DNA of 29,976 nucleotides, from the IMG/VR virus record IMGVR_UViG_3300005471_000042, positions 1 to 29,976 of that record; one strand, written 5' to 3'. The position numbers and the translations under genes are program-made. Shown piece after piece: positions 7,458-29,976 of this stretch (its first letter is position 1; each line of letters opens with the position of its first letter). The notes under the pieces were generated by a model. That model was not told the DNA's origin. It was given only the letters and a program-made list of their open reading frames with translations, and ran no database searches. This DNA comes from a virus.

Positions 7458-9827
7458 ATGGCGACATCCCTGCCCGCAGCCCAGCAGCAATCCGTGCAGC
7501 CCCAACCCCAACAGGGCCGCGGCACCAACCCCCTCGTCCGCGTCACCGGACTGCAGCAGCTCCTGCAGCGCGAGGCCGAGACGGCACCCAGCGCCACGTC
7601 GATCGACGCGTCCGGCCCGCTGTCCGCGCTGGCCGGCCATGTGCGCCACGCCTGGGGCAACAACAAGCTGGCGAAGCAGAAGGTCGAGCTCAAGCTGCTG
7701 ATGTGCCTGCGCGAGCGCCGTGGCGTCTACTCGCCCGCGCAGATCGCATCCATGCAGGCCAGCCGCGGGGGCCTGAACCTCGTGAAGGCCGACCTCACCG
7801 AAACCAAATGCCGCGCGGCCTCGGCGTGGGTCCGCGAGATCGTGCTGCCGGTGGGCGAGCAGCCGTGGGGCGTGGACCCGACGCCCGTGCCCGACCTCCC
7901 GGACGCGGTCAAGAAGGGGCTCGTGCAGAAGGCGATCCAGCAGGCCAACGACGCGATGAACCAGATCGCGAAGCAGGGCGGGGGCACGCTCTCGGCTGAC
8001 GAATACCGCGCGCTGATCACCCAGATCGGCACCAAGCTGCGCGACGACGCCGAGACCGCGCTCGTGCACGCCGCCGAGCAGCGCGCGAAGCGCATGGAGA
8101 AGCAGATTGCCGACCGGCTGGATGAGGGCGGCTACGCGACGGCGATGGACCAGTTTGTGGAGGACTTCGTCACCTACCCGGCGGCGATCCTCAAAGGCCC
8201 CATCTACCGGCGCCACAAGCAGCTCGAGTGGGCCACCGGCTGGAAGCCCAAAGTGTCGGACAACCCGCACCAGACGTGGGAGCGCGTCTCGCCGTTCGAC
8301 GCCTACCCGGCCCCGTCCGCGCGCGACTGTCAGGTGGGCGACTTCATCGAGCGCATTCGCTTCCGGCGCGAGGAGCTTCACGGCCTCAAGGGGCTGCCCG
8401 ACTACAAGGACGAGCAGATCGACAAGGCTCTCCTCGACTACTCGTCCGGGCATCTCGAGGGTTGGCTCTGGACCGAGGCCGAGCGCATCCGGCTCGAGCA
8501 GGAGTCGATGTATATGTGGCTCTCGCCGCCGGGCGTGATCGACGCGCTGAACTACTGGGGCTCGATCCCGGGGTGGAAACTGATGTCGTGGGGTGTGACC
8601 GATCGCGACGGCCTGATCCTCGAGGAGACGCGCGACTACGAGTGCAACGTGCTGCTGTGCGGCTCCTACATCCTCTACGCCGCGGTGAACCCCGACCCGC
8701 TCGACCAGCGGCCGTACCACCGGGCGTGTTACGACGAGATCCCGGGCGCGTTCTGGGGCCGCTCGATCCCCGACCTGTGCTCGACGTCCCAGCAGATGTG
8801 CGACGGCATCGCGTGCGCGCTGGCCGACAACCTCTCGCAGGCCTCCGGGCCTATGGTCTGGGTGCACGCCGACCGGTTCGCGGACGGCGAGCAGACCCTC
8901 GACATCTTCCCGTGGAAGGTGTGGCAGCTCAAGAGCGACCCAACGCAGGGCGTGAATCCCGGCATCGGCTTCTGGCAGGCCGACGACCGCTCCGAGCATC
9001 TCATGGGGGTGTACGAGAAGTGGGAGCTACGCGCCGACGACGCCTCCGGCATCCCACGCTACACCTACGGCAACGAGCGGGCCGGAGGCAGCGCCGACAC
9101 CGCGACGGGCCTGTCCATGCTGATGAACAACGCGGCCAAGGGGCTGCGCCGTGCGATCTCGAACATCGACATCAACGTGACGTCGCGCACGATCGGGATG
9201 TGCTTCGTCAACGAGATGCTCTACAACCCGGACCCGAGCATCAAGGGCGACTGCGTGCCGGTGCCGCGCGGCGCCGCGGCGATCCTCATCAAGGAGAGCG
9301 CGCAGCAGCGGCGCACCACGTTCCTGACGATGGTCGCGGGCAACCCGCTGCTAGCCCAGCTCATCGGGCCGAAGTACCTCATCAACCTCGTGCGCGAGGT
9401 GGCGACGTCGATGGAGCTCCCGGTGGACGAGGTCGTGCCGAGCGAGGACGAGGTCGACCAGCAGCAGGCGCAGCAGGCCCAGGCCGCGCAGGCCCAGGCC
9501 CAGGCGCAGGCTGCGCTCGAGCAGCAGTCGCAGGCGGCGCAGGGCGAGCGCGAGCGGCAGAACATCAACGCACAGACCGTCGCCGACATCATCAAGGAGG
9601 CCGTGGCGCATGCCCTGCAGACGGGGGCCGTGCTGCCGCCGATGGCACAGGCCGCGATCGCGGCGCCGCAGATCCCGGGCGCTCCTGCGCCTGCGGCCGC
9701 CGGCCAGCAGCAACCCGCACCCGGGGAGCAACCCGCACCCGAGGAACAGCCCGCCGAGGAACAGCCCGAGCAGGGCGGGGAACAAGCCGTACCTCCGGGC
9801 GCGTCACAACCGGAAGTTATGGGTTGA
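7458..9827 (+). CDS. Portal protein, 789 aa
   Basis: Dodecameric portal through which DNA enters and leaves the head; assigned from position directly after terL and before scaffold and capsid, from size, and from conserved-looking blocks. These include WGNNKLAKQKVELKLLMCLR (about residues 66-85), the ECNVLLCGSYILYA strand region near residue 400, and RTTFLTMVAGNPL followed by LIGPKYLINLVREVATSMEL near residues 620-650. The C-terminal 100 residues are unusual: a Gln/Ala-rich coiled-coil-like stretch (about 675-705) and a Pro/Glu/Gln tail with repeated EQPAPEEQPAEEQP. The long C-terminal helix resembles barrel-forming portals of P22-like phages. GAGG lies 10 nt before the ATG. Confidence 0.8.
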   Translation: MATSLPAAQQQSVQPQPQQGRGTNPLVRVTGLQQLLQREAETAPSATSIDASGPLSALAGHVRHAWGNNKLAKQKVELKLLMCLRERRGVYSPAQIASMQASRGGLNLVKADLTETKCRAASAWVREIVLPVGEQPWGVDPTPVPDLPDAVKKGLVQKAIQQANDAMNQIAKQGGGTLSADEYRALITQIGTKLRDDAETALVHAAEQRAKRMEKQIADRLDEGGYATAMDQFVEDFVTYPAAILKGPIYRRHKQLEWATGWKPKVSDNPHQTWERVSPFDAYPAPSARDCQVGDFIERIRFRREELHGLKGLPDYKDEQIDKALLDYSSGHLEGWLWTEAERIRLEQESMYMWLSPPGVIDALNYWGSIPGWKLMSWGVTDRDGLILEETRDYECNVLLCGSYILYAAVNPDPLDQRPYHRACYDEIPGAFWGRSIPDLCSTSQQMCDGIACALADNLSQASGPMVWVHADRFADGEQTLDIFPWKVWQLKSDPTQGVNPGIGFWQADDRSEHLMGVYEKWELRADDASGIPRYTYGNERAGGSADTATGLSMLMNNAAKGLRRAISNIDINVTSRTIGMCFVNEMLYNPDPSIKGDCVPVPRGAAAILIKESAQQRRTTFLTMVAGNPLLAQLIGPKYLINLVREVATSMELPVDEVVPSEDEVDQQQAQQAQAAQAQAQAQAALEQQSQAAQGERERQNINAQTVADIIKEAVAHALQTGAVLPPMAQAAIAAPQIPGAPAPAAAGQQQPAPGEQPAPEEQPAEEQPEQGGEQAVPPGASQPEVMG

Positions 9828-9853
9828 CGCCGGCTTAGAACGCCCTGCACAAT
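9824..9853 (+). promoter_or_regulatory. Possible sigma70-type promoter after portal
   Basis: TTGACG (9824-9829) and CACAAT (9848-9853) are separated by 18 nt. The -35 matches 5 of 6 consensus bases and the -10 matches 4 of 6. The predicted start lies only a few bases before the ATG at 9864, implying a nearly leaderless mRNA. It overlaps the portal stop codon. Confidence 0.3.
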
Positions 9854-9863
9854 CCGCGCCAAC

Positions 9864-10145
9864 ATGATCCGCTTGAACACCGAGCAACTACGCGTTCTGG
9901 AGGCGATAGGCAAAGCCCCGGGCAACGCTCAGTTCAGGCAGATCCTCGACGAGGCGATCGCGGACGCCAACGCGAACCTGCGGAAGCTGACCGGGGAGGC
10001 CCTCCTGCGCGAGCAGGGCAAGGCGCTTTTTCTGGACGAGCTCGCAGGCAAGCTCTGGCCCCCGATCGCCCGTCGTCCTGTGACCGAATCAAGGCCCGCC
10101 GTCCACTGGATGGAAGCCACAGGCCTCACGAACGGCTCACCTTGA
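9864..10145 (+). CDS. Hypothetical protein between portal and scaffold, 93 aa
   Basis: Starts MIRLNTEQLRVLEAIGKAPG. Mostly helical: NTEQLRVLEAI, then FRQILDEAIADANANLRKLTGEALLREQGKA (split over residues 24-55). Such small helical proteins often sit between portal and scaffold in podovirus-like operons. No Shine-Dalgarno sequence is obvious. The function is not known; an assembly or head-related role is inferred only from location. Confidence 0.7.
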   Translation: MIRLNTEQLRVLEAIGKAPGNAQFRQILDEAIADANANLRKLTGEALLREQGKALFLDELAGKLWPPIARRPVTESRPAVHWMEATGLTNGSP

Positions 10146-10146
10146 C

Positions 10147-10168
10147 AGGGATCCGCGCACGCATCCCT
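10147..10168. repeat. Hairpin upstream of scaffold gene
   Basis: AGGGAT (10147-10152) and ATCCCT (10163-10168) form a 6-bp stem over a GC-rich 10-nt loop. No T-tract follows, so it is unlikely to be a terminator. Confidence 0.3.
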
Positions 10169-10205
10169 CGCGACCCCCGGCAACTGACCGGATCGTGGAG
10201 TTTCC

Positions 10206-11201
10206 ATGCAGCCGAATACGGCCCGATCTGATACCCAACTTCCCCGGGCGGTGCGCCGCCAGATGGTTCGCGTGAACGCTCGGATGGACGAGCGCGCCGC
10301 GGCCAACAATCCGGCCCCAACCGATCCCGTGGAAGATCCTCCCGCAGACCCGACGCCCCAGGCGCCATCTGCCCCCGGCGCATCGCCGGCCGACGTCGAC
10401 CCTCGACACAGCGACCCCAGCTACTGGCGGTCGCGCTTCGACAACACCGCGGGCGTGCTCGCGGCCGTGCGTCGGGAGCATGTGACCGAGGCGGTGCGGC
10501 TGAATGCCCGGATTGCCGAGCTGGAGCAAACCAAGGCGACCCTCGAAACCGCGCTTGCCGCAGCCCCTGCCGCACCGGACCCCGATCCGCAGTTCGACGT
10601 GAAGGAGTACTTCTCGCCGACCGAGATCGACCAGTATGGCGAGGAGCAGTGCAAGGTCATGATCCGATCCGCCATCAAGGCGTCTCTGCGCGCAACGCGT
10701 CAGAGCCAGCCGCCGGCCGCGCAACCCGCGCCGCCCGCACCGGCTGCTGCTCCGACCACGCCCCAGACGCCGCCGGCCGACCCCGCGAAGACCGCGCGGG
10801 CCGAGCTGATGGGCAAGCTCGACGAGCTGCTGCCCGAGTGGCGCGACTGGGATCTGGACCCGAGACTGCATGCGTGGCTGGCGGAAGAGGAGAACGGCGT
10901 GCCGCGGCAAGCGGTGCTCAACGTTCACATCGCCAACGCGGACGCGAAGAAGATCGCCGCGCTGTACGAGCGCTGGGACCGTCAGGCCACCGTGGCTGCA
11001 CCGCAGCCCCCGGTGCAGCCCAGCGGCTCCGGTGCCAACAGCGGCGGCGATCCGCCTCCTGCTCCGAGCCGCAAGGCCATGACCGCGCCGTCTTCGGCGG
11101 AGGTCAAGGACTACTACAAGCGGCTCGCGCTCGGCAAGGTCAAGGACGAGGAACGGGCTCAGTTCGAGGAGCGTTTGAAGCTGCGCCACCCCGGCGGTTG
11201 A
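10206..11201 (+). CDS. Head scaffolding protein, 331 aa
   Basis: Probable internal scaffold guiding capsid assembly, inferred from its place directly before the major capsid gene and from composition. The N terminus (to about residue 65) is Pro/Ala-rich and disordered. A helical, coiled-coil-like section (about 75-122, with NARIAELEQTKATLETALA) follows, then a Pro/Ala linker (about 165-195), a second acidic/helical block, and a highly charged C-terminal helix pair (about 293-328, EVKDYYKRLALGKVKDEERA). A basic C-terminal helix-turn-helix that docks on the coat protein is the pattern known in P22 scaffold. GGAG lies 7 nt before the ATG. No protease motif is seen. Confidence 0.75.
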   Translation: MQPNTARSDTQLPRAVRRQMVRVNARMDERAAANNPAPTDPVEDPPADPTPQAPSAPGASPADVDPRHSDPSYWRSRFDNTAGVLAAVRREHVTEAVRLNARIAELEQTKATLETALAAAPAAPDPDPQFDVKEYFSPTEIDQYGEEQCKVMIRSAIKASLRATRQSQPPAAQPAPPAPAAAPTTPQTPPADPAKTARAELMGKLDELLPEWRDWDLDPRLHAWLAEEENGVPRQAVLNVHIANADAKKIAALYERWDRQATVAAPQPPVQPSGSGANSGGDPPPAPSRKAMTAPSSAEVKDYYKRLALGKVKDEERAQFEERLKLRHPGG

Positions 11202-11216
11202 GCCTCGCTCGCCGCC

Positions 11217-11230
11217 TTGGGGTGCCCCAA
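11217..11230. repeat. Short perfect hairpin before capsid gene
   Basis: TTGGGG-TG-CCCCAA is a perfect palindromic hairpin located 11 nt upstream of the capsid Shine-Dalgarno region. It may stabilise the capsid mRNA 5' end after processing; no T-tract is present. Confidence 0.35.
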
Positions 11231-11254
11231 CGCGCAACCTCAAGGAGAGCTACC

Positions 11255-12307
11255 GTGAAGAAGTTCCAGTTCACTGCCATCAGTGCAGCCCTCGGTGCGT
11301 TCGTACGCGACGCATTCACCCGCGCGCACGACGCGTTCATGGCCGGCCCGGCGCATCGCCTGGGCCTCGTGGCCTATGCCGGCGTGCCGCGCGCCTCCGG
11401 CGTGCCCGACTACGGGCCGGCAGGCACGATCAACTTCGACCCCGAGGTCTACTCGGGCAAGCTGGTCGAGAAGTTCTACAAGGCCACCGTGTTCGGCGAG
11501 ATCGCCTCGACCGACTACGAGGGCGACATCGCGGGCTTCGGCGCCCAGGTGAAGATCCGCACGATCCCGGACGTGACGGTCTCGGACTACGTGATCGGCG
11601 CAGGCCTGACCGCGCAGTACCCGACGAACCCCTCGGTCACCCTGGCGATCGACCAAGCCAAGTCATTCAACGTGGCTCTGTCCACGGTCGACAGCCGGCA
11701 GTCGGACCTCGACCTCGCGGACGTGTTCGCGAACGACGGCTCGATCCAGCTCAAGATCGCGGCCGACGCCGACATGCTCGAGACGATTCCCGCCGAGGTG
11801 TCCGCCGACAACAGCGGCACGACGGCCGGCGCCGACTCGCAGAACATCAACCTGGGCGACTCGACCACGCCGGTCGCGGTGGACAAGACCACCGTGGTCG
11901 ACTTCATGGTCGCGTGCGGTCAGGTGCTGGACGAGCAGAACGTCAGCGACGAAGGCCGCTGGTTCGTGGCCTCGCCCGCGTTCATCGCGGCGATCAAGAA
12001 GTCGGACTTGCGCATCGCGTCGCTGGCCGGTGACGGCGTGTCGATCGCCCGCAACGGCAAGGTGGGCGAGATCGACCGGTTCACGGTCTACCAGTCGCGC
12101 AATCTGCTGCGGCAGACCTCGCCGGGCCCGGCTGAGTACATCATGTTCGGCCACAGTGCCGGCCTGACGTTCGCGAGCCAGATCGTGGAATGTCAAATGA
12201 TAGATAATCCAAATGACTTTGGCTATATCATCCGCGGTTTGATGGTTTTCGGCTACCAAGTCATCGGAGCCAACTACGTCGGCACCGCAGTGGTCAAAGT
12301 GACCTGA
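11255..12307 (+). CDS. Major capsid protein, 350 aa
   Basis: HK97-fold coat protein that builds the icosahedral head. Recognised from position after the scaffold and from family-like blocks: KLVEKFYKATVFGEIASTDY (about residues 68-87), GAQVKIRTIPDVTVSDY, DQAKSFNVALSTVDSRQSDL, GRWFVASPAFIAAIKKSD and the C-terminal MVFGYQVIGANYVGTAVVK. It starts with GTG at 11255, preceded by AAGGAGA at ideal spacing; this start gives MKKFQF and a normal length. Near codons 312-330 the DNA becomes locally AT-rich with rare codons such as ATA, AAT and TTT, unlike the rest of the gene. A hairpin follows the stop. Confidence 0.85.
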   Translation: MKKFQFTAISAALGAFVRDAFTRAHDAFMAGPAHRLGLVAYAGVPRASGVPDYGPAGTINFDPEVYSGKLVEKFYKATVFGEIASTDYEGDIAGFGAQVKIRTIPDVTVSDYVIGAGLTAQYPTNPSVTLAIDQAKSFNVALSTVDSRQSDLDLADVFANDGSIQLKIAADADMLETIPAEVSADNSGTTAGADSQNINLGDSTTPVAVDKTTVVDFMVACGQVLDEQNVSDEGRWFVASPAFIAAIKKSDLRIASLAGDGVSIARNGKVGEIDRFTVYQSRNLLRQTSPGPAEYIMFGHSAGLTFASQIVECQMIDNPNDFGYIIRGLMVFGYQVIGANYVGTAVVKVT

Positions 12308-12634: not shown

Positions 12635-13135
12635 ATGCGTGCGGTCAACGGTCCTTTGACGCAAAAGCGCCTCAAAGAGCTTCTGCATTACGACCCGGAG
12701 ACGGGCGTACTGACGTGGCTCGAAGATCGCGGCGGGCGCGCGAAAGAAGGCACAACGGCCGGGGCCTTGAGTACCGGGTATCGGCGCCCGATGGTGGATG
12801 GTCGGCGGTATCTGGCGCAGCGCCTGATCTGGCTGTACATGACCGGCGAGTGGCCGGTATCGCAAGTCGACCACGAAGATCGCGATCGTTCAAACAACCG
12901 TTGGAAGAACCTACGCCCCGCCACCAAGAAGCAGAACGGTGAGAACCGCGGCTTGAACCGCAATTCGACGAGTGGTGTTCGCGGCGTGTCTTGGGATGAG
13001 CGGCTGCAAGGCTTCCGCGCTCGGATCTTCCACAACGGCGAGTCGGTTTTTCTCGGCATCCACAGCACGATCATCGACGCCGCCGCGGCGCGCATCAGCG
13101 CCGAGCGTCAAATGTTCACCCACGCACTCCACTAG
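12635..13135 (+). CDS. HNH-AP2 homing endonuclease, free-standing, 166 aa
   Basis: Selfish endonuclease of the HNH_3 plus AP2-type family. It opens with LTQKRLKELLHYDPETGVLTW (within residues 8-28). The HNH core is VSQVDHEDRDRSNNRWKNLR (75-94), with D79/H80, N87/N88 and N92. The C-terminal DNA-binding AP2-like part is about 112-160 (STSGVRGVSW, then GFRARIFHNGESVFLG). The position before the HNH core that is usually His in AHRLIW is Gln here (AQRLIW, Q62). GAGGGG lies 5-6 nt before the ATG. It interrupts the head gene block just after a terminator. A second copy of the family is fused to a virion gene near 24.1 kb. Confidence 0.9.
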   Translation: MRAVNGPLTQKRLKELLHYDPETGVLTWLEDRGGRAKEGTTAGALSTGYRRPMVDGRRYLAQRLIWLYMTGEWPVSQVDHEDRDRSNNRWKNLRPATKKQNGENRGLNRNSTSGVRGVSWDERLQGFRARIFHNGESVFLGIHSTIIDAAAARISAERQMFTHALH

Positions 13136-21223: not shown

Positions 21224-22193
21224 CACCATCTCATGGGCCAGCAGCGGCAACGGCACGAAAACAGGCACCGCAGCCGCCAACTTCTTCGACGACCTTGATA
21301 CGCTAATCACATCGAAGGCAGGCGACGCGACGTTCAAGTGGCAGAAGGCAGGCAAGAACTCCGCGGCCACGCCGTTCTGGCTCTTATTGAGCCGTAAGGA
21401 TGCCAGCAACGGGCGTCTCTTAATCGTGTGCTGGACGAGCGCACCGGCCGGTAACAACGCCGCGATCTTGGATACCGCGCCGAGCACCAATAATATTTTC
21501 ATTGCTTGGTTCCCGGCCGGCACCGCCAATACGGCGAGCAACCTGACGGCGTCGAGCGGCACGATCGCAGGCGACGACACCGGGGCTGTCAAATGCGCGC
21601 CTTTCAGCACGATTGCAAACGCCTACGGTGCGAACTTCGTACCTTTCTATTTCGATTCGACAGAAGGCGTGGTGTTCGGCACCGCAAACCCTGCCGCGGG
21701 AGCAACGTCCTACGTAATGGGCGCCGGATCGCTGCTGGTCGATGCGAGCGATAACGCTTATGACTGTACTTTCGGCTTCAGTTCCAACTTAGGTCCGAGT
21801 TTCGGGTCCACTACATCCCCGATACCGTGGGCCGCTGCGACTCCGAGCGCGGGGTCCACGACTGCAACTGTCAGAACGAATTACGGATCGACGAATCGAG
21901 CCTATTTTCTTGCTTGGGCTCCTTCTGCGGTGTGGGCGAACCAAGCGGTTGGTTCCGCGGACATCCTCACGGATACCTCGGTGAGCCGCGCATGGTTTGT
22001 GCCGGCTCAACTGCTCGGGCAAACGAAAGGTGAAGGCTTTGTGCTGAAGCTGCGGCAGATCGGGCTAGGCCCGGGTACGGTAGGCGCTTTTTCGGTCTAC
22101 AACACGACAGGTCCTGTCGTTGCGGCTCGCCAGTTTTGCAACGCCACGGCGGGCGTCAACGGCGCTCCTTGGCTCACAAACTTCAAAATTTAA
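21216..22193 (+). CDS. Virion tail protein, beta-rich, 325 aa
   Basis: Starts MSSTISWASSGNGTKTGTAA. Composed mostly of Gly/Ala/Ser/Thr-rich beta segments with many aromatic residues (NIFIAWFPAGTANTASNLTA, FVPFYFDSTEGVVFGTANPA, AYFLAWAPSAVWANQAVGSA). This is the usual look of a phage tail or receptor-contact protein. It overlaps the preceding small gene by 8 nt. Its codon use is less GC-rich than in the head and ejection genes. No enzyme motif is seen. Confidence 0.6.
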   Translation: MSSTISWASSGNGTKTGTAAANFFDDLDTLITSKAGDATFKWQKAGKNSAATPFWLLLSRKDASNGRLLIVCWTSAPAGNNAAILDTAPSTNNIFIAWFPAGTANTASNLTASSGTIAGDDTGAVKCAPFSTIANAYGANFVPFYFDSTEGVVFGTANPAAGATSYVMGAGSLLVDASDNAYDCTFGFSSNLGPSFGSTTSPIPWAAATPSAGSTTATVRTNYGSTNRAYFLAWAPSAVWANQAVGSADILTDTSVSRAWFVPAQLLGQTKGEGFVLKLRQIGLGPGTVGAFSVYNTTGPVVAARQFCNATAGVNGAPWLTNFKI

Positions 22194-23715: not shown

Positions 23716-24603
23716 ATGGCGTCTTTCGGCATCGGCGCAAACCTCTCGACCTACGGTGGTCGAGGGCGCTCCAGCGCGCTTTCGTCCTACGGGCAGGACG
23801 TCGAGCAGGAGGCAACCGCGGAGCTGCGCGAGGCCGCCGCGCAAGAGTCCCAGCGCAACGCGAAGAACACCCAGATCGAAGCGCAGAACAAGCAGGGCAA
23901 TCAGCAACTCGGCGCCACGATCGGTGGGCTTGCCGGCGGCGCAATCGCGGGCGCGCAATGGGGCTCTGCGGCGGGCCCGTGGGGTACTTTGATCGGCGGC
24001 GTGGTCGGGGCAATCGCAGGCGGTTTGTTCGCTTTTTTAGGGGCGGTAGCCTTGGTGGTATCCTTAGCGCTTCCATCAACCGCGGAAGCTGCTATGACGA
24101 TCGCTGATTCGGTGCCCATTTCTCAGGTAGAGCTGCATCAAATCTTGGTTTACGACCCCGAAACCGGGGTTTTCACGTGGCTTGCACCCAATCGCAATAC
24201 GCGGGTTGAAGCTGGAGATCGCGCCGGGTTCTTGCGCCCTCAGGGGTACCGGGTCATCAAAATCAGCCGTAAGGCTTACGCGGAGCATCGTCTTGCGTGG
24301 CTGTACATGCACGGTTCTTGGCCCTCAGACGAGATCGACCACATCAACCGCAAGAGAGATGACAACCGCTTTGCAAATCTCCGCCTAGCAACACGAAAGC
24401 AAAACTCTGAGAACCGGGATGCTCGCGCCGGTTCTGCGTCCGGGTTCCGTGGTGTTTCGTGGAGCGGGGGTAAATGGTGTGCCGTCATCATGCATTTCGG
24501 GCAGCAAAAAATGTTGGGCTCCTTTGATGACATAGAGCAGGCAAAGGCTGCGAGGCTCAAAGCTGAGCAGGAGCTTTTTACCCACTCAACGCGGGTTACC
24601 TAA
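23716..24603 (+). CDS. Small ejection protein fused in frame to HNH-AP2 endonuclease, 295 aa
   Basis: Two unrelated parts share one open frame. Residues 1-108 look like a membrane-active internal virion protein: a polar Gln/Glu helix (about 25-65), then a glycine-zipper segment (GGLAGGAIAGAQWGSAAG, 70-87; TLIGGVVGAIAGGLFAF, 91-107). Residues about 127-295 form a complete HNH_3-AP2 homing endonuclease (EIDHINRKRDDNRFANLR, 206-223; SGFRGVSW, 242-249). The join is a hydrophobic stretch (108-125). The frame crosses T TTT TTA at 24033-24039 with the 0 frame reading TTT TTA. The endonuclease half has visibly lower GC. Either a fusion, a frameshift pair, or two genes, the second starting at 24094. 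Confidence 0.7.
   Translation: MASFGIGANLSTYGGRGRSSALSSYGQDVEQEATAELREAAAQESQRNAKNTQIEAQNKQGNQQLGATIGGLAGGAIAGAQWGSAAGPWGTLIGGVVGAIAGGLFAFLGAVALVVSLALPSTAEAAMTIADSVPISQVELHQILVYDPETGVFTWLAPNRNTRVEAGDRAGFLRPQGYRVIKISRKAYAEHRLAWLYMHGSWPSDEIDHINRKRDDNRFANLRLATRKQNSENRDARAGSASGFRGVSWSGGKWCAVIMHFGQQKMLGSFDDIEQAKAARLKAEQELFTHSTRVT
24033..24039 (+). promoter_or_regulatory. Slippery heptamer T TTT TTA, possible -1 frameshift site
   Basis: TTTTTTA lies in the X XXY YYZ register with respect to the upstream gene. A -1 slip would read 22 more codons, starting RGGSLGGILSAS, and stop at TGA 24105-24107, giving 130 residues. A +1 shift would stop at once at TAG 24038-24040. UUUUUUA is a well known slippery sequence in retroviruses. 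Confidence 0.45.
24066..24093 (+). promoter_or_regulatory. Hairpin masking the putative HNH ribosome binding site
   Basis: AGCGCTTCC (24066-24074) pairs with GGAAGC-T-GCT (24084-24093), 9 pairs with one bulged T, directly before ATG 24094. GGAAG (24084-24088), the only Shine-Dalgarno-like element for that ATG, lies inside the stem. Restricted translation of homing endonucleases by mRNA hairpins is known in T4-type phages. Confidence 0.4.
24094..24603 (+). CDS. HNH-AP2 endonuclease from internal start, 169 aa (alternative product)
   Basis: If translated from ATG 24094, this portion is a normal free-standing HNH-AP2 enzyme beginning MTIADSVPISQVELHQILVY. Its N terminus then aligns well with the other endonuclease in this window (12635-13135), which has only a few residues before the equivalent DPETG block. 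The HNH core has EHRLAWLYMHG, then EIDHINRKRDDNRF, so it keeps the His that is Gln in the other copy. Only GGAAG precedes the ATG, within a hairpin. This reading competes with the full-length fusion; both share the same stop. Confidence 0.6.
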   Translation: MTIADSVPISQVELHQILVYDPETGVFTWLAPNRNTRVEAGDRAGFLRPQGYRVIKISRKAYAEHRLAWLYMHGSWPSDEIDHINRKRDDNRFANLRLATRKQNSENRDARAGSASGFRGVSWSGGKWCAVIMHFGQQKMLGSFDDIEQAKAARLKAEQELFTHSTRVT

Positions 24604-26931
24604 ATGGCACTCGGTATCGGCGGAGCAGCGGCGGCCGGCCTGGAGTCCGGCTTCAACATGGGTCTGCGCGCCGACGAGGCGGCGGAGACCCGGCGGCGCA
24701 ACGCTGCGACCGAGGCGCGGCAGTCGCGGCTCGACCAGCAGCAATCCGAACAGCTCGCGCGGCAGACCTCGCAGCAGGACGAGGACCGCGCACTGGCCGC
24801 CACGAATCAGGAGATGAGCGACCAAGCGGTCTACGGTGCTGGCCTCGCGGCGCAGTACGGCGGCCCGGACAAGATCCCGGGCGAGCTCGGCCGTGCCTAC
24901 GCGACCAAGGCCGGAGAGATCAGCACGCGCCGCGCGGCGCTGCTGCGCAAGCGCTACCAGCCGATGGTCGACAGTGAGCAGCAGTGGGCCAAGGACACGG
25001 CATCGCGCATCCAGACGGGCCAGATCAGCATGGACGACCTGAGCCCGGCTGACACGGTGCGCCTGATCCAGGCGACCTCGCGCCGCCCCGTGGCCGACTT
25101 CATCGCACCGCAGGACGGCAAGTCGCGCGTGCGCCAGTCGGTCGACGACGCCACGGCGGGCCTGGAGACGAAAAACCCCGGCCTGATGCTGCAGGGTGCC
25201 GGCAGCCTGATGGCGCCCGAGCTGCAGACCGGCCTCGGCCACGTCACGAGCGACGGCAGCCAGATCGTCAAGAAGGACCTCTACGCCCTGCTGCCGGCGC
25301 CCGCGCAGCAGGGCGGCATCCGGCCGGCACCTGTGCAGGGCCTCGCCGCGGCGCTCGACGCCGCCACGGCGCCCTCGGTGAACGGCCGCCCGCAACCCCA
25401 GCCGTTGCAGCCCGGCACCGACCCGGACAAGGTCATGCCGGTGCTCCAAGTGACCGCGCAGCATCCGGACGGCACCGAGGTGACCTACCACGCCCCGGTG
25501 ACGCTGGGCCGCGGCACGGGCGCGGACGACAACGTCGCGCCGCCGCTGTCCATCAAGGACATGATGAACCGCATGGGGCAGCTCGGCACGCTGGAGCAGT
25601 GGGCGAACACACCCAAGGCGCGCGCCAAGATCGAGCAGGGCCTCAAGGATCTCGGCGGCGATGCAAACTCGTTCCTGGGCGCGTACTACGCGATGCACGG
25701 TGACGCCAAGGCGCTCTTGCCGCCGGGCAGCGAGGACCCGACGTCCAAGCAGATCAGTGCGATCAAGAAGCTTGCGATTGACCTGAACGTCGACTTCGCG
25801 ACGGCGGCCGCGGCGCTCAAGGGTAAAGGCACCGCGGCCGGCGGCATCGGGGGCGCAATCGGGCAGAAGCTCAAAGCGATCGAGGACGACCCGGATCTGA
25901 CGCCAGAGCAGAAGTCTCAGGCGAAGCGCGTCGCCTACGGTATCGAGAAAATCGCCACACCGAAACTCGGCGGCGGTGTCGACATGTCGCCCGAGGCAAT
26001 TGACCAGACGGCGCAAGCCGCACTGAAAGACCGCACGGCGTTGGTCGGCATCGGGCGCGACCCGAACAAGGTGACCGCGGTCCTCAACCGCATGGCCGAG
26101 ATGTCCCCCGGCGGCGACATCGCCGGCAGCCGCGCGTTGTTCGGCGCGGACAAGAAGTCGCTCGACAAGATGATCCCGCAGTACGACGCGGTGACCTCGT
26201 TCGAGAACAACACGTTGCAGCAGGGCAAGGTGCTGGTCGGACTCGCGAAGAAGGTCGACGCGACCGGCGTGCCGGTGATCGAGCGCTGGATTCGCGCCGG
26301 CCGGCAGTCCATCGCGGGCGACGCCGACGTGGCCGAGTTCAACGCGCAACTCCAGCTTTTCAGCAACGAGGCGGCGAAGATCCTCACGAATCCGAACCTC
26401 ACGGGCGTGTTGAGCGACTCGGCCCGCCACGAGGTGGCTGGCTTCCTGCCGAGCAGCGCGAGTGGCGCGCAGATCGAGCGCGTCGTCGGCCGTCTGGAGA
26501 ACGACTTCGAGATCCGGCGCAAGTCGATCGAGGATCAGGTCAGCACGATCACGAAGCGCATGGCCGAGCGACAGCCGGCCAAGGGCAGCGCGAGCGGCCT
26601 GACGGGCGGCGGTGGAGGCGGCGGAGGTGGCGGAGGCGACGTGACCTCCGTGACAGGCCGAGGCGCAACGGAGGACACGTTGAGTCTCCTGCGACAGGAG
26701 CTCGGCGACGCGCAGCAGAGGCTCGCCAAAGGCGACGCGCGGGCGCAAGGCGACATGGACGCGCTCAACCGCGAGATCGCCAAGGTCAGCAAAGCACCCG
26801 CCCCGACGCGCGCAGCAGCCGCGGCGCCGGCTGGCGCCCCGAAGCGCATCGCCACGGACGCCGACTACAACGCGCTGCCGTCTGGGGCCACGTTCGTCGG
26901 TCCTGACGGCAAGACCCGGCGGAAGCCCTGA
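24604..26931 (+). CDS. Large internal virion protein, 775 aa
   Basis: Likely ejected protein of the core or channel. The N terminus is helical and Gln/Arg-rich (about 20-65, ADEAAETRRRNAATEARQSR). A helical body follows, with MMNRMGQLGTLEQWANTPKA near 320 and repeated long helices up to about 665. A polyglycine linker (about 673-683) leads to a coiled segment. The end (IATDADYNALPSGATFVGPD, then GKTRRKP) is a motif found at the C termini of many phage internal virion proteins. The ATG follows the stop of the HNH fusion directly (TAAATG), with no clear Shine-Dalgarno sequence; the HNH insertion may have displaced the original one. No lytic transglycosylase motif is seen. Confidence 0.7.
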   Translation: MALGIGGAAAAGLESGFNMGLRADEAAETRRRNAATEARQSRLDQQQSEQLARQTSQQDEDRALAATNQEMSDQAVYGAGLAAQYGGPDKIPGELGRAYATKAGEISTRRAALLRKRYQPMVDSEQQWAKDTASRIQTGQISMDDLSPADTVRLIQATSRRPVADFIAPQDGKSRVRQSVDDATAGLETKNPGLMLQGAGSLMAPELQTGLGHVTSDGSQIVKKDLYALLPAPAQQGGIRPAPVQGLAAALDAATAPSVNGRPQPQPLQPGTDPDKVMPVLQVTAQHPDGTEVTYHAPVTLGRGTGADDNVAPPLSIKDMMNRMGQLGTLEQWANTPKARAKIEQGLKDLGGDANSFLGAYYAMHGDAKALLPPGSEDPTSKQISAIKKLAIDLNVDFATAAAALKGKGTAAGGIGGAIGQKLKAIEDDPDLTPEQKSQAKRVAYGIEKIATPKLGGGVDMSPEAIDQTAQAALKDRTALVGIGRDPNKVTAVLNRMAEMSPGGDIAGSRALFGADKKSLDKMIPQYDAVTSFENNTLQQGKVLVGLAKKVDATGVPVIERWIRAGRQSIAGDADVAEFNAQLQLFSNEAAKILTNPNLTGVLSDSARHEVAGFLPSSASGAQIERVVGRLENDFEIRRKSIEDQVSTITKRMAERQPAKGSASGLTGGGGGGGGGGGDVTSVTGRGATEDTLSLLRQELGDAQQRLAKGDARAQGDMDALNREIAKVSKAPAPTRAAAAAPAGAPKRIATDADYNALPSGATFVGPDGKTRRKP

Positions 26932-26933
26932 CC

Positions 26934-29900
26934 ATGGGCTGGCAGGACGCCCCCGTCGTTGAGGACACCCCGCCGGCTGCCAAGCGCCCGGCGTGGATGG
27001 ACGCGCCCGAGGTGAGCAGCGCCTCCGGCTTGAACGAGCCGCAGGACACGGGCGCCGACCTGATCCCCGTCAACGCGTCAGGCGAGACCGCTGGGCAGGC
27101 GCGGCGTCGCGTGGCCGCCGCTGCACCGCCCCCGCCGCCTCCGCCCACGTTCGGCGACAAGGTCACCAGCGCGATCGACGCGGGGCTCAACCTCGTGCGC
27201 CAGATGTCCCCGGTCAACGTCGTCCGGGGCGTCGTGAGCGGCAAGATGACGCCGTCAGAAGAGGTGGTGGCGCACACTGGAACCGCGCTCACGACCGGCG
27301 CGCTCGGCATGGCCGGCGGCTTCCTAGGCGGCACGGCGGGCAACATCAGCGAGGCCATACGCACGCGCGGCCGCTCGCCGGCCCCGGGCGCCGACGTCGG
27401 CGTCGAGCAGGCGGTGACCGAGGGCGGCGAGAAGCTGACCTACGCGCCGCGCAGCCCGGAGGCCCAGCGCACAGTCGAGGAGTACGTGACGCCGGTCATG
27501 CAGGCCGCGGCGCCACTGATGGGCCACATGGCAGAGGTGGGCGCCATCCACACGATGACGGGCGCCGCGAAAGCCAAGGCCGGCGGCACGGTGCCGATGC
27601 TGCGCGACACGGCGGCCGAGATCGTGCCCGGCGTGCGCGACACCGCCCAGGTGGCGGCCGACTTGGCGCGCGAGCGCAAGCTCGCGGCGCCCGAGAACCA
27701 GGGCATCGTCAACGCGATCGACGCCGGTTACAAGGTCACCCAGAAAGCGGGCCGCGGCGCGAAACCGGCGCAGATCGTCGAGACGATGGCGGGCCGCGCT
27801 CGGACGGCGCAGGAGATGGCGGCGCACAACGCCGAGAACACCGCCAAGCTCGCGCGGCAAGACATCGGCGTGCCCGATGACACGGCGCTGACGCCCGAGG
27901 TCACGGAGAACGTGCGCAAGGAGGCCGGCGCGGCGTACAACGTGCTCGACCAAGTCGGGCGCGTCGACCTTGACGATCAGTTCCGCGCCGACGTGCAGCG
28001 CGTGGCCGAGCCGTTCGTCGAGGGCGGCAAGGACTTCGAACAGCTTGCGAAGAACCCGATCATCAAGGCCTCGCAGGATCTGGCGGTCGACGCGGCCGAC
28101 ACGCGCTCGATGATCGAGGTCGTCAAGGATCTGCGCAACAAGGCGAGCATCGCGTTCCGGGCCGGCGACAAGCAACTCGGCAACGGCTACCGCGCGTTGG
28201 CCGAGGCGACCGACAACGCGATGAGCCGCGCACTCGATCGCGTGGAGCAGACCGACCCGAGCACGATCCCGCCGGGCGCGATGGACGCGTATCGCGCGGC
28301 GCGCGTACGCATCGCCAAGAGCTACCTGCTCGACGACGCGATGAACGGCAAGCCGGGCGAGGTCGACGCCAAGGTCTACGGCCGCGCGATCGCGAAGGGC
28401 TCGCCTCTGAGCGGACCGGGGCGCCAGATCGGCGAATTCGCAAACCAGTTCGGCGAGGAGGGTCTCGCCAAGAAGAAAGGCCGTTCCGGCGAGATCGGCC
28501 CGACGTACCACGACATCCTGCTGGCCGGGCTGCACGCAGCGCGCGGCGGGCTTGAAGCGGTGGCGACGGCCGGCGCACGCCCGGCGGCCCGCGCGATCCT
28601 CGGCAGCGAGCTCGTGCAGCGCCGCCTGCGCGCCCGTGCCGCAGGCGAGCTGCCGGCACGTGAGCCCGCGGCACCGCCCGCCGTGCCGCCCGAGCCGACC
28701 ACGTCGCCCGGCGCCGCGCCAGAGCCACCCGAGGGTGGCGGGGGCGGGGGCGGCACGCCGCCGAGTCCGCTGGGCGACCTGACGCCCGACTGGGAGACAA
28801 CCCCCGGCGCAGCGCCACCCGCGCCGCCGGCTGTCGAGCCGACCGGGCTGGTGCGCCCGCTCGACGAGGCGCCGCCCACGACAGGCAACCGCCGCGCGCC
28901 GCTGGAGATCCCGGCCGTGCCGGGCCGGCCCGACCTGCCCGACACGATGGTGGTCGGGCGGCCGGGAGAGGTGGCGGCGAGCGAGGCGGCCAACGCGGCG
29001 ATGGGCGAGCCGGGCGCCGTCGCAGCGCGGCGCGCGCAGGAGGCGCCGCCGGCCAACCCGAAGCTCGCCGAGGTCGAGCGGCTCAAGGCGTCGACGCAGT
29101 CGCCCGCGGTGCGCAAGGCGCTCGACGAGCACGCCGCGGCGCTCAAGGCCGAGGACGCCCAGCGCGAGGCCGCGCGGCAGCGCGTGGCCGACGCGGCCGA
29201 GCTCGACCGCACCGCGAGCAACACGCTGGACCCCGAGCTGCGCAAGCGGCTGCGCGCGCAGGCCGACAAGCTGCGCGGCGAGAAGCCCGAGGCCGGCGGC
29301 AAGGCGACCGAGGGCCAGCCCGAGATCAAGACCGAGAAGCCCGGCAAGATCCCGGTCGGCAAGGCCACCGAGCTGGCGGTCGAGCGGATCGAGCCGGAGG
29401 GCGACTTGCCGGTGGGCGAGGCGACCGAGCTGCCGGTGGAGTACGTCGAGCCCAAGGGCTGGCGCGAGTCGTTCAAGCTCGGCGAGGGCGACGCGCAGCG
29501 CGCGCACCGCGTCGCGGCCGCGCTCGCCAAGGATGCCGACGCGGTCGAGGCCGCGGCCCGCCAGCACGAGAGCAGCCCGCGCGCCTTCGACCGCGCGATC
29601 GACCGGATTCTGGAGAAGACCGATGAGAATGCGAGCGAGCGCGCTGCTCAAGGCGGCGAAGGCGCTGGTGCCGGGCGGCCCGGCGCAGAAGCAGGCGCCG
29701 AACACCAGCGCGGTGCAGCAGCTCCAACCGCTGGCGAACAACCCAGGGCCGAGCGCGCTGCAGCGGCCGGAGCCGAACGCGGTGCAGCCGAGCCTGCCGG
29801 CGGACAAGCGACAGGTGTCGAGAAAGTCAATGCTGGGGTAGAGATCCGCGAGGTGTCCGGCGGCTTCGACGCCTACAAGGACGGCAAGAAGGTCGGCTAC

Positions 29901-29976
29901 CTGCGCGACAACCTCGAGCGCGGGCAGGCCGAGCAGCTCGGCGAGAACGCGAGCGTCGACATCGTCAAGGTCGACA
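26934..29976 (+). CDS. Giant multidomain (polyvalent-type) virion protein, 3' truncated
   Basis: One frame is open from ATG 26934 to the right edge, at least 1014 codons. GGAAG lies 9 nt upstream. Seen in order: short DAP-type repeats (MGWQDAP, then PAWMDAPE); a polyproline stretch; a Gly/Ala-rich, possibly membrane-interacting segment (TTGALGMAGGFLGGTAGNI, about 120-140); long helices (about 160-540, including DIGVPDDTALTPEVTENVRK); Pro/Gly-rich linkers; Lys/Glu helices with PVGKATEL/PVGEATEL repeats; and GGFDAYKDGKKVGYLRDN near the edge. This mosaic of linkers and helices fits injected polyvalent proteins of podoviruses. No catalytic domain is visible in the part present. Confidence 0.75.
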   Translation, partial: MGWQDAPVVEDTPPAAKRPAWMDAPEVSSASGLNEPQDTGADLIPVNASGETAGQARRRVAAAAPPPPPPPTFGDKVTSAIDAGLNLVRQMSPVNVVRGVVSGKMTPSEEVVAHTGTALTTGALGMAGGFLGGTAGNISEAIRTRGRSPAPGADVGVEQAVTEGGEKLTYAPRSPEAQRTVEEYVTPVMQAAAPLMGHMAEVGAIHTMTGAAKAKAGGTVPMLRDTAAEIVPGVRDTAQVAADLARERKLAAPENQGIVNAIDAGYKVTQKAGRGAKPAQIVETMAGRARTAQEMAAHNAENTAKLARQDIGVPDDTALTPEVTENVRKEAGAAYNVLDQVGRVDLDDQFRADVQRVAEPFVEGGKDFEQLAKNPIIKASQDLAVDAADTRSMIEVVKDLRNKASIAFRAGDKQLGNGYRALAEATDNAMSRALDRVEQTDPSTIPPGAMDAYRAARVRIAKSYLLDDAMNGKPGEVDAKVYGRAIAKGSPLSGPGRQIGEFANQFGEEGLAKKKGRSGEIGPTYHDILLAGLHAARGGLEAVATAGARPAARAILGSELVQRRLRARAAGELPAREPAAPPAVPPEPTTSPGAAPEPPEGGGGGGGTPPSPLGDLTPDWETTPGAAPPAPPAVEPTGLVRPLDEAPPTTGNRRAPLEIPAVPGRPDLPDTMVVGRPGEVAASEAANAAMGEPGAVAARRAQEAPPANPKLAEVERLKASTQSPAVRKALDEHAAALKAEDAQREAARQRVADAAELDRTASNTLDPELRKRLRAQADKLRGEKPEAGGKATEGQPEIKTEKPGKIPVGKATELAVERIEPEGDLPVGEATELPVEYVEPKGWRESFKLGEGDAQRAHRVAAALAKDADAVEAAARQHESSPRAFDRAIDRILEKTDENASERAAQGGEGAGAGRPGAEAGAEHQRGAAAPTAGEQPRAERAAAAGAERGAAEPAGGQATGVEKVNAGVEIREVSGGFDAYKDGKKVGYLRDNLERGQAEQLGENASVDIVKVD
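29623..29841 (+). CDS. Nested small ORF with own ribosome binding site, 72 aa
   Basis: Lies wholly inside the giant gene in the +1 frame. GGAG is 7 nt before the ATG. The protein starts MRMRASALLKAAKALVPGGP, is Gln/Pro-rich in the middle, and ends SRKSMLG. By my count 65 of its 72 codons end in G or C, the pattern of real genes here, while over the same bases the long frame has only 38 of 73, with an Ala/Gly/Glu-rich low-complexity product. Before and after this stretch the long frame again has the high-GC third position. So this ORF is likely a true gene or an inserted one. Function unknown. Confidence 0.6.
   Translation: MRMRASALLKAAKALVPGGPAQKQAPNTSAVQQLQPLANNPGPSALQRPEPNAVQPSLPADKRQVSRKSMLG

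Follow-up and report, generated by a model that had tools for sequence, protein, structure and literature searches.

What does it mean when, inside one very long viral gene, the codon bias leaves the frame that stays open and appears for 219 nucleotides in another frame? The question is raised by the 3' end of the window, by which is meant the whole 29,976-nucleotide stretch that was analysed (IMG/VR record IMGVR_UViG_3300005471_000042), where a giant gene beginning at 26934 shows such a swap at 29623-29841. The explanation proposed here, to which we assign a probability of about 0.85 on comparative sequence grounds, is that a real small gene (nested gene 1) lies at offset +1 within the gene for a giant ejected protein, the latter having probably grown by stop-loss extension through small genes. 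The features on which the argument turns are as follows.

26934-29976, plus strand: the giant gene, open at the 3' end of the window, 1014 residues here.
29612-29615, plus strand: GGAG, the Shine-Dalgarno (SD) sequence of nested gene 1, with a 7-nucleotide spacer to the ATG.
29623-29841, plus strand: nested gene 1, 72 residues, MRMRASALLKAAKALVPGG...KSMLG, in the +1 frame of the giant gene, with its ATG at 29623 and TAG at 29839-29841.

An earlier note on this DNA had reported that only 38 of 73 long-frame codons end in G or C in this stretch, compared with 65 of 72 in the +1 frame, that the nested frame has its own GGAG and ATG, that the long frame stays open as low-complexity sequence, and that the bias afterwards returns to it. 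A recount gave exactly the same two fractions, both start signals are present at the positions above, and translation bears out the description of the long frame. With the long frame counted from 26934, its GC content by codon position is 0.79/0.49/0.97 at 29400-29622, 0.90/0.70/0.52 at 29623-29841 and 0.69/0.31/1.00 after 29842; within the swapped stretch, third-position GC (GC3) is 0.90 in the nested frame versus 0.52 in the long one. The binomial probability of 38 or fewer such codons among 73 at a GC3 of 0.93 is 2e-21. GC3 minus GC1 (first-position GC) is -28 for the stretch, and none of the 4,842 other 73-codon stretches of the window's main genes falls below -6, in a scan that omitted the over-extended 5' part of the open reading frame (ORF) 10649-12307, since another frame codes there. 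On codon usage, 29623-29841 is the sole frame swap within a long gene of the window, and nested gene 1 scores 0.32 per codon, similar to the main genes. Two further swaps hinted at by a coarse GC scan (9610-9867 and 21751-21975) failed on codon-usage score or on inspection of the translation. The open nested frame is by itself no evidence for a gene, because resampling the long protein with synonymous codons leaves that frame open in 44-96% of cases; the weight of the case thus rests on codon bias, on conservation of start and SD, and on the pattern of substitution.

Scans of IMG/VR used as queries the whole giant protein, the C-terminal part on its own, the nested protein, and a neighbouring segment of the giant protein:

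29472-29609, plus strand: conserved 46-residue segment of the giant protein (…AVEAAARQHESSPRAFDRAIDRI), found by alignment of 6-9 relatives and ending just upstream of the SD of nested gene 1.

Nested gene 1 was found in 12 contigs (the window, L003, L021, L022, L024, L025, L031, L033, L037, L045, L046 and L050), in every case as a single copy inside the giant ORF at offset +1, with an ATG or GTG start, an SD and a TAG stop. An SD of at least 4 nucleotides precedes 18 of 18 nested starts, compared with 22% of the other +1-frame ATG or GTG codons in the giant genes; the 18 starts span three gene families, and the p value of about 1e-11 ignores relatedness, orthologues not being independent. The nested protein has a conserved helix-like N terminus, MRxKPSKLLAAAKA, together with the motif NPGPTALQRPEP. 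The earlier note had asked whether relatives carry stops in the nested frame: the frame is kept in every relative that has the domain just upstream, nested gene 1 being present at every locus that was found with the 46-residue segment and is not truncated by the end of its contig. A systematic search for nested ORFs at all loci recovered those of the window, L021 and L033 and missed several in contigs of lower GC content, so that its negatives mean little.

Codon-position analysis and per-frame substitution counts, which the earlier note had put forward as a check, place the constraint on the nested frame. In all 20 of the overlaps compared, the nested frame resembles the phage in synonymous codon choice more closely than the long frame does. 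Changes that are synonymous in the nested gene and nonsynonymous in the long frame occur at 0.52 per site, compared with 0.33 and 0.29 per site for changes altering the nested protein, and the ratio for the long frame in the overlap is about 1.1, i.e. without amino-acid constraint. The most variable position moves from long-frame position 3 in the flanks to long-frame position 1 in the overlap (p=2e-6 for L003-L021). Across two gene families, the nested proteins are more alike than the corresponding long-frame products in all 21 pairs, and purifying selection on the nested frame is significant for several pairs. With start, SD and stop conserved, the ORF at 29623-29841 is very probably a genuine overlapping gene, the first of the meanings that had been suggested for it.

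Nested gene 1 does not stand alone. The giant gene continues in IMGVR_UViG_3300005471_000059 (L005), which joins the window by an exact 120-nucleotide overlap with positions 29857-29976, and its stop lies at about 1217 of that contig. Two further nested genes were found, in this contig and in L050.

L005 373-534 (if the two contigs do join, approximately 30229-30390 in window numbering), at offset +1 in the giant gene: nested gene 2, MAQVNDNAVSPVMYGKAVKPKK..., MAQVNDNAVSPVMYGKAVKPKKGRS...
L050 5590-5751, at offset +1 in the giant gene and upstream of nested gene 1: a third nested gene, member of phrog_2423 (1.3e-17).

Nested gene 2 is present in seven contigs (L005, L020, L003, L021, L022, L031 and L033), its product having the conserved N terminus MALTPNLxxSPVxYGKK; like nested protein 1, it is small and proline- or lysine-rich. 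In L031, which has no GNAT domain, nested genes 1 and 2 form a tandem with a gap of nine bases. When the giant genes of L021 and L033, both from one sample, are compared by blastn, the core and nested gene 1 align, then a 170-nucleotide island, then the last domain; the island is the coding sequence of nested gene 2, and the DNA around it is unrelated because the domains there differ. The phrog_2423 gene is nested in L050 and free-standing in L025, 12 nucleotides past the giant's stop, and 352 phage records contain matches to it. Members of the phage small-gene pool do, therefore, find their way into these linkers. Only the extra nested gene of L050 matches the phrog_2423 profile; nested genes 1 and 2 do not.

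The long frame at the overlaps has the character of a linker. It is low in complexity and rich in Ala, Gly, Glu and Pro, and the structure predicted for the L022 giant C terminus has a disordered stretch at residues 131-178, nested gene 2 covering 129-182; by these two observations the nested genes fill the linkers. The long frame is open at the overlap in every contig. With the nested proteins and phage codon usage held fixed, the long frame at offset +1 is open in 24-51% of resamplings, compared with 0-36%, and often never, at the other offset. An open long frame in all contigs is not expected from luck alone, though the contigs are related.

How might such an arrangement work, and how could it have arisen? 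Ribosomes would initiate on nested gene 1 at its own SD and ATG and terminate at its own TAG, while those translating the giant frame would cross this DNA shifted by one base and produce a disordered Ala/Gly/Glu/Pro-rich linker, in the case of nested gene 1 one that would join a helical segment to a GNAT-like domain. Offset +1 places the small gene's third codon positions, which are rich in G/C, at the first positions of the giant codons; read-through in this register tends to remain open because stop codons need T at that position. Most likely, an ejection gene that lost its stop was extended through the small genes downstream and captured genes for effector domains lying beyond them. Stop-loss extension in a stop-poor frame, as has been proposed for the polymerase spacer of hepatitis B virus (HBV), would be the simplest account; the alternative is that small genes were inserted by recombination into linkers that already existed. 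The earlier note had listed a captured small gene and a fusion through a former overlap as separate meanings; in the light of the relatives they form one story, since small phage genes, among them phrog_2423, which is free elsewhere and nested in L050, sit in the linkers of a modular ejection protein, and the linker sequence is what the nested gene gives when read with a one-base shift. From sequence we infer that both products are translated, in which direction the arrangement originated, and that the small proteins have a virion or ejection role; operon position and the analogy of the phrog_2423 case suggest that they are most likely virion or ejection accessories. It may tentatively be suggested, with less confidence than not, that this is a general route to giant injected proteins, in which small genes of the virion operon double as +1 linkers and as homology joints for exchange of effector domains, such that polyvalent proteins would be fused operons whose once intergenic genes persist within the linkers.

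The most durable rival is classical overprinting, in which the long frame is the older one and the nested gene was born de novo within an existing linker. Linkers tolerate overprinting, and nested genes 1 and 2 have no known free-standing homologue. The genome-like codon usage, however, lies in the nested and not the long frame in all 20 overlaps, which by Pavesi's criterion (PMC8227390) makes the long frame the newer; phrog_2423, moreover, is widespread and free-standing, so it was not born in the linker of L050. We consider overprinting of this kind unlikely.

Programmed frameshifting, by which the giant protein would itself hold the nested sequence through a shift to +1 and back, is very improbable. 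It would account for the constraint on the nested frame and for the resumption of the giant frame afterwards, but two shifts would be required per nested gene, and no conserved slippery sequence stands out on inspection of the junctions. A frameshifted insert, furthermore, has no need of the ATG or GTG starts, SDs and stops that are kept, and the long frame is kept open as well. Slightly less credible still is a compositional accident, in which an Ala/Gly/Pro-rich linker merely looks coding in another frame; the frequency with which the nested frame is open by chance in such sequence (the 44-96% given above) is what makes it worth stating, but chance openness does not explain the greater likeness of the nested proteins in 21 of 21 pairs, the conserved start, SD and stop, or a 170-nucleotide blastn island that coincides with nested gene 2. 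Finally, a sequencing or assembly error, with +1 and -1 indels near 29620 and 29840 splitting one continuous gene into two apparent frames, would fit the sharp edges of the swap, as paired compensating indels would, and can be set aside, since 12 mostly independent contigs share the arrangement with in-frame start and stop at corresponding places and nested gene 2 repeats the pattern.

Several results weigh against the proposed explanation and should be set beside it. No free-standing homologue of nested gene 1, for which the earlier note had advised a search, was found by tblastn in phages or plasmids, and two scans of genome contigs found no relative; for nested gene 2, tblastn in phages gave one insignificant match and no free-standing homologue. 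With none found for either gene, the case for an origin by capture is based on phrog_2423 and codon usage. Nested protein 1 is fast-evolving, and neither it nor nested protein 2 has a PHROGs or Pfam family match; the AlphaFold model of nested protein 1 is of low confidence (pLDDT, predicted local distance difference test, 64), with one helix at 5-14. The third-position test for the window against L021 and L033 alone is not significant, nor is purifying selection for the window's own pairs alone, so that for the window itself the weight falls on codon bias, signals and homology. The known set comprises only 12 contigs, metagenomic, mostly fragments and related to one another, and in one of them, L003, the giant frame is broken near 9750 (7803-9755, then 9490-11424). 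This break may be a frameshift, an error or a real split.

The giant protein and its surroundings can be described as follows.

Order of the giant protein: N-terminal core, proline-/glycine-rich repeats, helical segment, linker over nested gene 1, then the C-terminal part.
Order of the C-terminal part: GNAT-like domain, linker over nested gene 2, HELGEH segment.
29838-29976, plus strand: start of the GNAT-like domain, VEIREVSGGFDAYKDGKKVGYL..., the first residues overlapping the stop codon of nested gene 1.
24604-26931, plus strand: upstream neighbour gene, 775 residues, no family match, directly before the giant gene.

The core has a tblastn match in Xanthomonas phage PBR31, to internal protein C, which is of 557 residues there, and the gene order of the window is the same as that of PBR31 internal proteins A, B and C. 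The window's own giant protein has no direct family match; those of L025 and L031 match phrog_26400, 'DNA ejection protein'. Judged by these relatives, by the PBR31 homology and by gene order, the giant is a DNA-ejection protein, and the 775-residue neighbour would by position be a second one, gp15-like. The GNAT-like domain has a weak Pfam match to Acetyltransf_7 (20 bits versus a cut-off of 27) and a weak Foldseek match to the GNAT RibT (5xxr); Foldseek with the giant C terminus gave this weak match only, and no zincin. On the question of a zincin-like metallopeptidase fold, the HELGEH motif, of HExxH type, is invariant, with a weak phrog_873 match and no Pfam, PDB-sequence or fold match. 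The domain directly after nested gene 2 is ParB-like in L020 and L021 and ART-PolyVal in L033 (Pfam, 1.6e-20); an insert of either type is absent at that site from L003, L005 and L022. The ParB_N and GNAT matches fall below curated cut-offs. By these domain matches the giant qualifies as a polyvalent protein, i.e. one phage polypeptide with several effector domains, here carried on an ejection protein.

Elsewhere in the window there are two phrog_99 HNH endonuclease genes, one near the capsid gene (12635-13135) and one ahead of the ejection-protein genes (23716-24603). The ORF with the major-capsid match, 10649-12307, is over-extended at its 5' end, with a coding signal in another frame at 10206-11201; the capsid start is likely near 11250, and an apparent frame swap at 10649-11200 reflects this over-extended ORF start.

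Gene callers see one giant gene at such loci and are likely to overlook the small genes nested in it; should the small proteins belong to the virion or the ejection apparatus, parts of the infection machinery have been overlooked with them. In addition, nested genes lie at the borders between domains and may serve as exchange points when injected effectors shuffle domains. Since free-standing, tandem-nested and between-swapped-domain states can be compared, the birth of multidomain proteins by read-through, a step that in HBV was inferred from codon usage, becomes testable in phages.

The closest precedent is the overlap of the HBV polymerase spacer with the surface gene, for which it has been proposed that a frame arising de novo in a small gene acted as a linker joining the flanking genes, the linker frame being judged the newer by codon usage (Pavesi 2021, PMC8227390, section 8). 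In both systems the linker frame is the newer on this measure and is proposed to have joined its flanks into a multidomain protein; by contrast with HBV, the present cases are in tailed phages with double-stranded DNA, two or three unrelated small genes lie within one gene, and relatives display free-standing, nested and tandem states with swapped neighbouring domains. Lambda-type Rz/Rz1 pairs are similar in that a small phage gene with its own start lies in another frame within a larger gene. A review of spanins considers gene extension past a lost stop as a route and reports no family of spanins in which embedded and other arrangements both occur (PMC6139136), whereas phrog_2423 occurs both nested (L050) and free (L025 and elsewhere); the partners here, moreover, are not lysis genes, and an embedded spanin (Rz1-like) role was excluded for nested proteins 1 and 2, which have no cysteine and so no lipobox.

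The modular build of the giant, with GNAT-like, ParB-like, ART-PolyVal and HExxH segments, resembles that of the polyvalent proteins of Iyer et al. 2017 (PMC5512222), where linker-nested genes are not discussed and the word 'overlapping' is absent. As the third and largest gene of an internal-protein cluster, with mosaic domains and variable size, it is likewise comparable with podovirus gp14/gp15/gp16 (PMC8954989), from which it differs in its C-terminal effector-type extension and its nested genes; that review mentions neither nested nor overlapping genes, and a literature search on phage ejection proteins gave no report of genes nested in them. The phrog_2423 family, homologous to the nested gene of L050 and the free gene of L025 and not to nested genes 1 or 2, includes gp35 of Pbunavirus Ab28, annotated 'virion protein', and in the records inspected its genes stand free beside terminase, portal or head genes. 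Nested phage genes and the idea of a linker made by overprinting are already known; what is new, as far as the searched literature shows, is that a single injected phage protein of several domains has several small genes in its linkers, and that relatives show free, tandem and nested states.
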